Positions 40,441-43,231 of a stretch of 64,000 bases of DNA are shown here, one piece after another. The stretch is from the NCBI GenBank assembly GCA_030849805.1, contig JASANZ010002240.1, positions 31,159 through 95,158 of the forward strand. The letters are read 5' to 3'. The position numbers were made by a program, and so were the translations under genes. The DNA comes from Sergeia podlipaevii (lineage: Eukaryota > Euglenozoa > Kinetoplastea > Trypanosomatida > Trypanosomatidae). Each line of letters begins with the position of its first letter. Position 1 is the stretch's first letter. The notes beneath the pieces were generated by a model. The model was not told the DNA's origin, searched no databases, and was given only the letters and a program-made list of their open reading frames with translations.

Positions 40441-40998
40441 CTAAATAGAAATCACCTCTGTGTTCTTGAAGTAGGGCAAGCAAAGACCTTCCTTCCAAGA
40501 AACGTTGCTACGCACGGCCTGGAGCATCTTGCCAATGTCGCCATGGCACACAAGAAGAACGTCCTCACCAGGATGTTTAGCGTCCACCTCCGCAAGCACT
40601 CGGCGGGCACGTTCATAGCAGTCATCGAACAACTCTGATCCCTCCGCCTGCAGGAAATAAAGCACTTGGTCTCCTTGATAGACATTATCTCCGGCGTACT
40701 TGGGGATATCCGAGTAGGGCTTCCCAGAAAGAATGCCAAAATCGCGCTCGATGAGATCCGGCATCGTCACAACCGGTATTCCAATGATCTCCCCAATCGC
40801 CTCTGCGGTAGCGTGGGCACGTTGTAACGGTGAGGTGTAAATAGCTGCGTACATGACGCCACTTGCCTTGATGGTGGCGGCCACCTGGGAAGCCTGCTGT
40901 CTGCCAAGGTCAGAGAGAGGGCGATCGCGATGACCGTTGAGGAGGCCTTCAACGTTGTCAAGATTCTCCCCATGTCGGCATACGTGAACCTTCGCCAT
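40441..40998 (-). CDS. Histidine phosphatase (phosphoglycerate mutase-like)
   Basis: A compact 185-residue member of the histidine phosphatase superfamily. The catalytic R-H-G motif is at the N-terminus (VHVCRHGENL). The expected partners are visible: Arg in YTSPLQRAHATA, Glu in IERDFG, and the second catalytic His in LLVCHGDIGKM. Length matches the single-domain branch that includes cofactor-dependent mutases, fructose-2,6-bisphosphatase-like and broad-specificity phosphatases. It lacks the longer insertions of true glycolytic dPGM, so a general phosphatase is more likely than a glycolytic enzyme. The ATG at 40998 (MAKVHVC) is chosen over the open extension because it places the first beta strand at the start. 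Confidence 0.85.
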   Translation of the reverse strand: MAKVHVCRHGENLDNVEGLLNGHRDRPLSDLGRQQASQVAATIKASGVMYAAIYTSPLQRAHATAEAIGEIIGIPVVTMPDLIERDFGILSGKPYSDIPKYAGDNVYQGDQVLYFLQAEGSELFDDCYERARRVLAEVDAKHPGEDVLLVCHGDIGKMLQAVRSNVSWKEGLCLPYFKNTEVISI

Positions 40999-41497
40999 TA
41001 AACTAAATAAATATGACACCAATGTGGAGATGTATGTGTGAACAGTAGAAAGAAAAAAAGATTATTAAACAACGCGCTTTATTCTTTACTTTGCGTTCGC
41101 TTATGATGGAGCGCGTGTAAAAACAAAATAATTGAAAGCCACAACGCGTGGTGGATCGTATTTGTTTTTGGTGCTTTATTCGATAATGTGCTGCAAAAAA
41201 AAAAAAAACTTTGAACTCGTCACATTTTCATGCAAACAAAAGGAAAAAACAAATAAAGAGAAGGAGAGGAAGAGAAAAGTTCGCGTGTAAATATATATAT
41301 CAGCAGCATGCCTGCTTACAATAGCTAGAAGACACGCTGCAAAATCATCTTGTAGGTGCAATATAAAAGGTGAAAGAAATAGCTTTACAAACGAAGAGCA
41401 CAACGGGGTGGTCACTCGATGGCTCAGTATATATATAAAAAAAAAACTGTACAGAGCACTCTATTGCAATACCAGTTCGCCTACACTTCTATAGAAG
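40999..41497. other. Spacer between histidine phosphatase gene and snoRNA cluster
   Basis: No gene was seen. A-runs (41194-41206, 41438-41446), TA run near 41290-41300 and 41428-41437. It may carry the 5' part of the histidine phosphatase mRNA and processing signals for the snoRNA cluster, which lies upstream of it in the direction of transcription. Confidence 0.5.
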
Positions 41498-41562
41498 CAA
41501 TCTTGGTGGGTTCTATACGAGTGACAGCATGTCTGAGCCAAGTCACACGGCGAAAGCCAACC
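41498..41562 (-). ncRNA. H/ACA-like snoRNA, cluster copy 1
   Basis: A single-hairpin RNA of about 65 nt read on the minus strand. Lower stem GGTTGG (41562-41557) with CCCACC (41510-41505), one mismatch. Pocket CTTTCGC (41556-41550) facing TATAGAA (41517-41511). Upper stem CG-T-GTGAC against GTCAC-T-CG with one mismatch. An AGA box lies at 41503-41501. From the base of the upper stem to the AGA is exactly 14 nt, the spacing H/ACA RNPs use to place the target uridine. Kinetoplastid H/ACA RNAs are known to be single hairpins with AGA rather than ACA. The strand agrees with the surrounding genes. The same pocket occurs in the three neighbouring copies. Ends are estimated to a few nucleotides. Confidence 0.75.
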
Positions 41563-41743
41563 TTTTATACTGGGCAGACACAGGAAAGGAAATGCAAGAA
41601 CAAAGGCAATTGCTTCAATCATCCATTCAAAACCACACGCGTAGCTTTGCAATATGCGAGTAAGCAACAGCAAAAAGAAAAAAAAAGAGTCGGAAAGAGA
41701 AGCAAAGAAGAGAAAGTGAAAGAGGGTACGCTTTCTCTTTATA

Positions 41744-41810
41744 GCTTCTAGGACGATTCTATACGAGCGCATCGATCAACAGCTCGCGGCACCTTCGGCG
41801 AAAGCCGTCC
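41744..41810 (-). ncRNA. H/ACA-like snoRNA, cluster copy 2
   Basis: About 67 nt on the minus strand with the same layout. Lower stem GGACGG (41810-41805) with TCGTCC (41756-41751), fully paired if one G-T is allowed. Pocket CTTTCGC facing TATAGAA (41763-41757). The AGA box is at 41749-41747, again 14 nt from the upper stem. The upper stem differs most here: CGAG/CTCG or an alternative GCGC pairing, with an extra purine-rich segment on the 5' side. Stem bases differ from copy 1 at several paired positions while pocket bases are identical. Confidence 0.72.
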
Positions 41811-41910
41811 TTAAAATATGAGACCGACAACTTGGGGAAAAAAGCATCAATTTTGGCAGTAGACGCAAAAAAAAAAAAATGAAGACGTATAGAGAAGAAA
41901 AACATAGGCA

Positions 41911-41976
41911 AAATCTGGGACAGTTCTATACGAGTGATGTGATAAAGAGGCACAAATCACGCGGCGAAAGCTGTCC
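41911..41976 (-). ncRNA. H/ACA-like snoRNA, cluster copy 3
   Basis: About 66 nt on the minus strand and the best-paired copy. Lower stem GGACAG (41976-41971) with CTGTCC (41923-41918), six perfect pairs. Pocket CTTTCGC facing TATAGAA (41930-41924). Upper stem CG-C-GTGAT with ATCAC-T-CG. AGA box at 41916-41914, 14 nt from the upper stem. Compared with copy 1 the upper stem changes GTGAC/GTCAC to GTGAT/ATCAC, a compensatory pair change, and the lower stem changes at two pairs. Confidence 0.75.
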
Positions 41977-42068
41977 GGAATGCATCCGACATACAAGCAC
42001 ACTTGAATAGAAACTAATGTATGGAATTATAATTAAAATGCTTCTCGTCCCATTTGTAGCTTGTCGAT

Positions 42069-42136
42069 GACTCTGGGTTGATTCTATACGAGCAATGTCA
42101 CACAAGAAGTGATAAACAGCTCGGCGAAAGCCATCC
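42069..42136 (-). ncRNA. H/ACA-like snoRNA, cluster copy 4
   Basis: About 68 nt on the minus strand. Lower stem GGATGG (42136-42131) with TCAACC (42080-42075), one mismatch and one G-T. Pocket CTTTCGC facing TATAGAA (42088-42082). Upper stem CGAGC with GCTCG, five perfect pairs, plus a possible inner helix. AGA box at 42074-42072, 14 nt from the upper stem. Being the highest-coordinate copy, it is transcribed first. Confidence 0.73.
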
Positions 42137-42982
42137 TACAGAAGTGCGGTAAGGACCGAGACAAACACATAGAAATGGTAATGAAGAAGAAGAAAAGAAA
42201 AAAGAACTAAACATGACAGCAACTACCAGAACATCATATCTACGTAATTTTTATATGTAAACAGAAGAACTATGGCAATACTCCAAAAAAAAAGTGAAAG
42301 AAGAAAAGGAGAAGGCACTTGGATAGTTGAATTCATAAAAATGAAGCACAAAACACACACAGTAACAGAAGAAATCTCATACTCTAAAACAAAAAGAAAA
42401 AACAGCAAATGTTAAAGGGTCAAGCACCACTTATGTTATCTATGTATTATTATAAATACTATTTTCCTTTTTTTTGAATCGTCATAGCTGCTAACGCTTA
42501 ACGTGATGTCGCTTAAAAAAAAAAAAAAAAATTCCTTCCATTATTTTTGTTGCTCTCTACAGCATCCGCCAACGCGCTGCATACACTTTTTCATATATAC
42601 GCTGGCAAACGATCTTACGTCGGAAAGAATGACGATTGCACAACAGAGAGGGCACAACAAAAAAAAGTACTCGTATGGCGGATGCACCTTGAAAGCGCTC
42701 TACCTGTTAGCATAGGCTCATAGGCAAAAGAGAACAATCAATATGCCTATCCTCTACGTTTAATATAACTATCCACAATGAAATGATCAATGAAGCGTCC
42801 ACACAGTCACTGGGAGAAATGCATATATAATACAGCACGCTGAGATCGGCCGTCAATATGGGCCAAAAAAAGAAAAGAAAAAAGAAGGAACCCTACAAAC
42901 AATGAACTATATAGATCGTCAAATGAACAGCCATCGTCTACACACATAAAACTTCAAAAGAAAACACAAACAGTGAACGAGT
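42137..42982. other. Non-coding interval with a 10-bp inverted repeat
   Basis: No coding gene was recognised. The notable element is a perfect 10-bp inverted repeat, GCATCCGCCA at 42562-42571 and TGGCGGATGC at 42676-42685, enclosing about 104 nt. The enclosed DNA is more complex than the A/T-rich flanks, so a structured RNA is possible, though no family signature (snoRNA, tRNA, 7SL, snRNA) was identified. A-run at 42515-42530. Confidence 0.4.
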
Positions 42983-43231
42983 TCAGTATTCCTCCAACGA
43001 GTCATCATCACCATTGTCATCGGCGTCTTCGTTGTTGGCCTTGGCGCGCATCTGCGCGCGCTCACTGGGATAATATGAGGCCATCCGTGCCGCCCACTGA
43101 ACTACATTCACGTTATCCCCAAAGAGCTCGCGGAAGCATTTGGCATCCTCTTCATTAGGTGTGTAGCCGCCAAGATAGGACTTCTTCGTCAACCTCTCAT
43201 TGAGCTCCTTTATGGTGACAGAAGAAGACAT
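42983..43231 (-). CDS. Orphan eEF1B-beta N-terminal-domain protein
   Basis: A short 82-residue acidic protein whose first ~60 residues (SVTIKELNERLTKKSYLGGYTPNEEDA, broken here by FRELFGDNVNVVQWAARMASYY) resemble the N-terminal GST-C-like helical domain of elongation factor 1-beta/delta. That domain docks eEF1B-beta on eEF1B-gamma. The usual central acidic linker is reduced to a short Asp/Glu tail, and the catalytic guanine-nucleotide-exchange domain is absent, so the protein cannot itself exchange GTP on eEF1A. It might regulate assembly of the eEF1B or trypanothione-linked complex. The frame opens earlier at a TTG; the ATG at 43231 (MSSSVTIKEL) is used. The sequence ends at a normal stop, with no sign of downstream exchange-domain remnants, so truncation by assembly error is unlikely. 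Confidence 0.7.
   Translation of the reverse strand: MSSSVTIKELNERLTKKSYLGGYTPNEEDAKCFRELFGDNVNVVQWAARMASYYPSERAQMRAKANNEDADDNGDDDSLEEY

Follow-up and report, generated by a model that had tools for sequence, protein, structure and literature searches.

What do four small hairpins encode that lie in tandem between two genes of the trypanosomatid Sergeia podlipaevii and share one and the same internal pocket? The question arises in a window of 64,000 nucleotides (the whole stretch of DNA analysed here, with positions counted from its first letter), which is part of a 23.4-Mb assembly of 576 contigs. All four hairpins sit on the minus strand within the interval between two flanking open reading frames (40999-42982, ~1.98 kb), both of which are on the minus strand as well, so that the location originally described, an interval of about 2 kb between genes on the same strand, is correct. 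We propose that the locus encodes four paralogous single-hairpin H/ACA-like guide RNAs of the AGA-box type, a reading of their anatomy and class which we hold with a probability of about 80%.

The 3′ limit of the interval is marked by a gene (40441..40998, minus strand) for a histidine phosphatase / phosphoglycerate-mutase-like protein of 185 amino acids (PF00300, E 3.9e-38). Among the best 120 of 340 matches are proteins of Leptomonas (71% identity), L. major (68%), Angomonas deanei (64%) and T. vivax (63%), which suggests a trypanosomatid host close to the Leishmania/Leptomonas group. The 5′ limit is set by a small open reading frame of 79 amino acids (42983..43222, minus strand) in which no Pfam match was found. 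Viral contigs searched with the histidine-phosphatase protein yielded no related locus. Runs of T or of pyrimidines are present between the copies within 40999-42982; such runs are expected for trans-splicing and polyadenylation signals.

Read 5′ to 3′, every copy begins with an A or C, followed by a 6-nucleotide (nt) arm of the lower stem (stem I), the pocket arm CTTTCGC and an upper stem (stem II) starting with CG; stem II ends with CTCG and leads into the pocket arm TATAGAA, the second 6-nt arm of stem I, a single nucleotide and the trinucleotide AGA. Copy 1 (42072..42136, minus strand) forms stem I between 42131-42136 and 42076-42081 (GGATGG/TCAACC, with a single A.A mismatch), carries CTTTCGC at 42124-42130, TATAGAA at 42082-42088 and the AGA at 42072-42074, and has a stem II that is unbroken for at least 5 bp from the pocket. 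Copy 2 (41914..41976, minus strand), which has the best free fold of the four, pairs 41971-41976 with 41918-41923 (GGACAG/CTGTCC) with no mismatch; its pocket arms are found at 41964-41970 and 41924-41930 and its AGA at 41914-41916. Copy 3 (41747..41810, minus strand) has the weakest stem II, in which 3 bp are followed by a bulge or internal loop; its stem I joins 41805-41810 to 41751-41756 (GGACGG/TCGTCC), its pocket arms occupy 41798-41804 and 41757-41763, and the AGA lies at 41747-41749. In copy 4 (41501..41562, minus strand), stem I is formed by 41557-41562 and 41505-41510 (GGTTGG/CCCACC, with a single T.C mismatch), the pocket arms are 41550-41556 and 41511-41517, and the AGA is at 41501-41503. 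In both copies 2 and 4, stem II consists of 2 bp, one mismatch and 4-5 further bp.

The spans from pocket to pocket are 42082-42130, 41924-41970, 41757-41804 and 41511-41556 on the minus strand. The base just 5′ of stem I is A, C, A and A in the four copies, and the length from stem I to AGA is 62-65 nt. Where stem II meets the pocket, its two closing pairs (CG/CG) are the same in all copies, and the AGA is located 14 nt below stem II and 1 nt past stem I in every copy. An exact common pocket and an AGA box 14 nt from the upper stem had both been claimed for these hairpins, and both features are confirmed in all four.

The pocket pair CTTTCGC/TATAGAA has four matches in the window, compared with none in 100 dinucleotide-preserving shuffles. 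Across the 23.4-Mb assembly, the exact pair again matches four times, always at this locus, and the reversed control gives no match. A relaxed search for copies returned six matches, namely the four copies and two others, against seven in its control. Within the window, a model built from the four copies themselves (R1) matches these copies only, at 42069-42138, 41911-41978, 41744-41812 and 41498-41564.

Hairpins which lie on the coding strand of one intergenic interval, 158-246 nt apart and between a small open reading frame and the next gene, might also belong to a single longer transcript, a structured RNA or untranslated region with four protein-binding hairpins. However, the recurrent layout of a 7+7 pocket, a 6-bp stem I, one nucleotide and an AGA fits separate RNAs better, and flanks that are mostly unalignable between copies (see below) are also better suited to separate small RNAs. 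We consider a single longer transcript of this kind very unlikely.

Covariation was scored on an H/ACA structure that was named after the four sequences had been read, which favours the named pairs over slid versions; on these four sequences (n=4), 49 of 56 cells are paired (87.5%; 0/500 shuffles as high), six of 14 pairs are changed on both sides yet still paired (1/500), and the covariation score amounts to 0.476 against 0.237 ± 0.066 in shuffles (0/500) and a maximum of 0.167 with slid partners. One of the five covariation measures, the number of further pair types, is unexceptional (124/500 shuffles). RNAalifold predicts both stems, with six of 16 pairs doubly changed, and adds three invariant pairs within the pocket. 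The original observation that pairing is kept while bases change is upheld.

Examined stem by stem, the picture is more graded. Stem I differs between copies and shows standard pairs in 22 of 24 cells, but the A.A of copy 1 and the T.C of copy 4 break the pairing that had been described as intact. Its inner pairs are formed in 14 of 16 cells (shuffle P 1.3e-4), and when the 3′ arms of stem I are permuted, the observed Watson-Crick count is reached by two of 24 arrangements, the true one included, and by three of 24 when G.U is counted. Stem II was likewise said to be kept; three copies exceed their shuffles (P 0.0025, 0.046 and 0.041), but copy 3 does not (P 0.40). The occurrence of AGA at +14 in four of four copies would have a rough chance of 1e-7 if the copies were unrelated; as they are related, this value is no strict P.

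The wobble pairs also bear on the strand. Five G.U cells are present in the structure (two in copy 1 and three in copy 3), all of which would turn into A.C on the plus strand, and only one A.C cell occurs as read on the minus strand; for this reason, the modelled RNA is likely transcribed from the minus strand. Folding of each copy by itself, which had been suggested as a check, distinguishes copy 2 (z -2.94, 0/200 shuffles as good) but not the other three (z -1.03, -0.34 and -0.89), which behave like shuffles. When the interval is scanned sequence by sequence with the published consensus, copies 2 and 4 are the two top sites (scores of 13 and 11), copies 1 and 3 score 8 and fall under one other site at 9, and four of 12 shuffled intervals reach the 11 of copy 4. 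Free folding and single-sequence scanning therefore lend weak support to the modelled hairpins.

The consensus for AGA-box H/ACA-like RNAs, as given in the sections of PMC2613932 used here, describes a single hairpin with a total size of 57-91, a stem I of 5-8 bp that is usually perfect, a pocket, a stem II with 3-7 perfect pairs beside the pocket, and an AGA box that begins 1-3 nt from the end of stem I, with 13-16 nt between it and the pseudouridine (Psi) site above; section 14 adds an A or C just 5′ of stem I. The four copies have in common with this consensus the single hairpin, the 6-bp stem I, the 7+7 pocket, stem II, the AGA at +1 nt, the A/C before stem I and the 14-nt spacing. The AGA falls within both ranges in four of four copies, stem I is perfect in copies 2 and 3 (G.U allowed), and copies 1 and 3 possess the perfect 3-7-bp stem II. 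In contrast, copies 1 and 4 depart from the usually perfect stem I by one mismatch and at best satisfy the relaxed rule of section 26. In copies 2 and 4, a mismatch interrupts stem II after its first 2 bp, where 3-7 perfect pairs are called for, and taken literally these two copies fall outside this part of the computational consensus. The folding rule of PMC2613932 wants two paired bases beside the pocket, and exceptions to its own consensus are reported there (sections 14 and 26).

Taken on the modelled structure, the identification of the four copies as H/ACA-like guide RNAs is well supported by covariation, AGA spacing, the A/C before stem I, size and strand-specific wobble pairs. Pocket identity supports a single predicted specificity common to all four, and the original view of H/ACA-like guides with one specificity is retained. 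The canonical box H/ACA arrangement of two hairpins was not found, the copies being single hairpins 158-246 nt apart with an AGA after each. No C box (RTGATGA), as in box C/D snoRNAs, is present on either strand of the interval; the shorter TGATG occurs twice on the minus and three times on the plus strand. Rfam reports no family at gathering score anywhere in the window, and a MIR529 hit at 41692-41753 (26.1 bits against a cut-off of 75) was rejected. A search of the assembly for Cbf5 via PF08068 and PF01509 gave no candidates, a result which says little since the control genomes (4/14 positive for PF08068, 14/14 for PF01509) are all prokaryotes judging by their names and include no eukaryote.

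How old is the array, and are all of its members maintained? In an alignment of 70 columns, the pocket (14/14) and the AGA (3/3) are invariant, compared with 5/12 columns of stem I, 6/16 of stem II and 2/19 of the apical part. The mean pairwise identity is correspondingly 1.00 for both pocket arms and AGA, 0.64 for stem I, 0.57 for stem II and 0.47 for the apical part. Across apical parts and 60-nt flanks, 14 of 18 pairwise comparisons give no more similarity than letter shuffles at the 5% level. Similarity above shuffles was seen between the apical parts of copies 2 and 4 (0/200) and of copies 1 and 2 (6/200), between the 5′ flanks of copies 1 and 2 (2/200) and between the 3′ flanks of copies 3 and 4 (6/200). 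Because apical parts and flanks are mostly unalignable, we infer from sequence comparison that the copies are old and do not form a fresh array; the closest pair is perhaps copies 2 and 4.

Such divergence raises the question whether the locus might hold one working guide and three pseudogenes, that is, tandem duplicates in decay. The stem-I mismatches of copies 1 and 4 and the poor upper stem of copy 3 would agree with this scenario. However, decay would strike the pocket too, and pocket and AGA are invariant (17/17 columns) next to apical parts that are 47% identical; in addition, compensatory changes are observed, which are unexpected for pseudogenes. Decay is accordingly the reading we find highly improbable. 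The concentration of invariance in the pocket, the AGA and the pocket-closing pairs points to selection on the guide.

The same interval contains a further structured stretch. On the minus strand, 42545-42705 can form a multibranched fold of 161 nt closed by GCATCCGCCA/TGGCGGATGC, with an AGA 3 nt beyond (-49.3 kcal/mol, z -1.87, 9/200 shuffles as good). H/ACA-like RNAs of ~150 nt are described for two H/ACA-only clusters in section 26 of PMC2613932. In the assembly, the 42545-42705 stretch matched only itself, and it has no Rfam match. It may or may not be one of these ~150-nt H/ACA-like RNAs.

In H/ACA guides, the 3′ pocket arm pairs upstream of the target U and the 5′ arm downstream of it. 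Applied to the shared pocket, this rule predicts a target of the form UUCUAUA-(Psi)N-GCGAAAG. The pattern TCTATAN{1,4}GCGAAAG has three matches in the assembly and four in the reversed control, which is chance level, and no Rfam family at gathering score was found around the three. Allowing for wobble pairs (TTYTRTRTNGYGRRRG) gave eight matches in the assembly and eight in the control, again chance level. A pattern scan of IMG/VR returned six matches that were put down to chance. Searches of the assembly gave no 18S pattern match, no 5.8S and no large-subunit (LSU) rRNA; part of the LSU searches had no positive control genome, and an empty result is uninformative there. That neither rRNA genes nor Cbf5 were found suggests that the assembly is incomplete or that the searches are insensitive for this genome.

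The best rRNA match of the pocket is a conserved segment of LSU domain II (UAUAGGGGCGAAAG), where 4-5 and 8 bp flank a gap of 2 nt. Contig L014, which carries eukaryotic rDNA, reads CTATA[GG]GGCGAAAG here, but this match is not independent, the contig having been retrieved with a pattern that held most of it. The Rfam consensus for eukaryotic LSU (RF02543) reads uaUAGGgGcGAAAG, with GG in the gap, and an LSU-like stretch of the viral contig L029, retrieved without TATA in the query, reads TATA[GG]GGCGAAAG. On the 3.4 kb of L014, an incomplete rDNA unit, the consensus match is equalled by 26 of 1500 guides after shuffling (~2%), and three of 1500 equal the match of L014 itself. When a U is demanded in the gap, no convincing match exists in this partial eukaryotic rDNA; 48 of 500 shuffled guides pair as well there as the best one. 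The domain II match is thus a modest lead at ~2% chance and no proof. As for the sources, L014 is a contig of a bacterial metagenome-assembled genome (Pseudomonadales bacterium isolate NORP332) that carries eukaryotic SSU, 5.8S and LSU, and is contamination of a public genome. The start of L029, from the viral collection (1-120), resembles eukaryotic LSU rRNA; no Rfam family was found in it at gathering score, and the contig is perhaps a chimera.

Since both unpaired target bases in domain II are G, one may ask whether the H/ACA-like RNPs bind this segment as assembly or processing chaperones and modify no U. This alternative accepts the same anatomy and disputes the modification step only. 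Pairing of 4-5 and 8 bp around the gap in both L014 and the RF02543 consensus, equalled by 26 of 1500 shuffled guides for the latter, speaks in its favour, as does a T. brucei H/ACA RNA, TB9Cs3H2, which section 31 of PMC6411936 describes as required for rRNA processing, though it guides a Psi. However, the L014 match is not independent, the match is seen outside trypanosomatid LSU only, the last three bases (GAA) of TATAGAA, the same in every copy, have no partner in the consensus, a chance of ~2% is modest, and L014 does not span a whole rDNA unit. A chaperone role is in our judgement unlikely, and the fuller proposal that a tandem four-gene RNP family docks on the GG of LSU domain II as a high-dosage rRNA-folding chaperone is quite unlikely.

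Under the preferred reading of four paralogous guide RNAs, an old tandem duplication would have given rise to the four copies, each of which would be under selection to retain an unchanged guide pocket together with pairing in stems I and II. The copies would be cut out of a polycistronic minus-strand transcript, would bind the Cbf5 complex and would guide the conversion of a single U to Psi in a target close to the predicted sequence. Four copies would mainly raise guide dosage; the original prediction had named, besides dosage, copies that might act at different times or places.

How far does such a locus depart from known ones? The L. major homologue of the flanking gene lies, we presume, on chromosome 8; if so, the present locus differs from LM36C4H1, an H/ACA-like locus of L. 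major. By its published description in section 26 of PMC2613932, LM36C4H1 comprises a pair of inexact repeats whose pocket is perfectly conserved, and thus resembles the present locus in having diverged H/ACA-like repeats that share one pocket. The two differ in that LM36C4H1 has two repeats with C/D snoRNAs nearby and the present locus has four repeats. In T. brucei, ten H/ACA genes are reported in five H/ACA-only clusters of about two each (PMC4855143, section 5), and H/ACA-only clusters are on record in section 26 of PMC2613932 too; like the present locus, these clusters are without a C/D partner. The original prediction had called the arrangement unusual, which is overstated in view of these published H/ACA-only clusters and conserved-pocket repeats. 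Among the titles and abstract openings of a part of the literature hits, no published description of the four-copy set was found, and an earlier one may exist. The RNAs are best regarded as being of a known type, with the reservation that copies 2 and 4 depart from the consensus in stem II, and four deeply diverged isoguides in tandem go beyond the precedents described in the cited sections.

The locus also reveals where a trypanosomatid guide RNA tolerates change and where it does not. If the pocket truly meets the GG in large-subunit RNA, this would point to a non-modifying role. If all four copies are expressed, they would amount to a natural experiment on what maintains several diverged guides for a single site, and such a test would separate dosage, stage-specific expression and extra targets reached via the variable parts.
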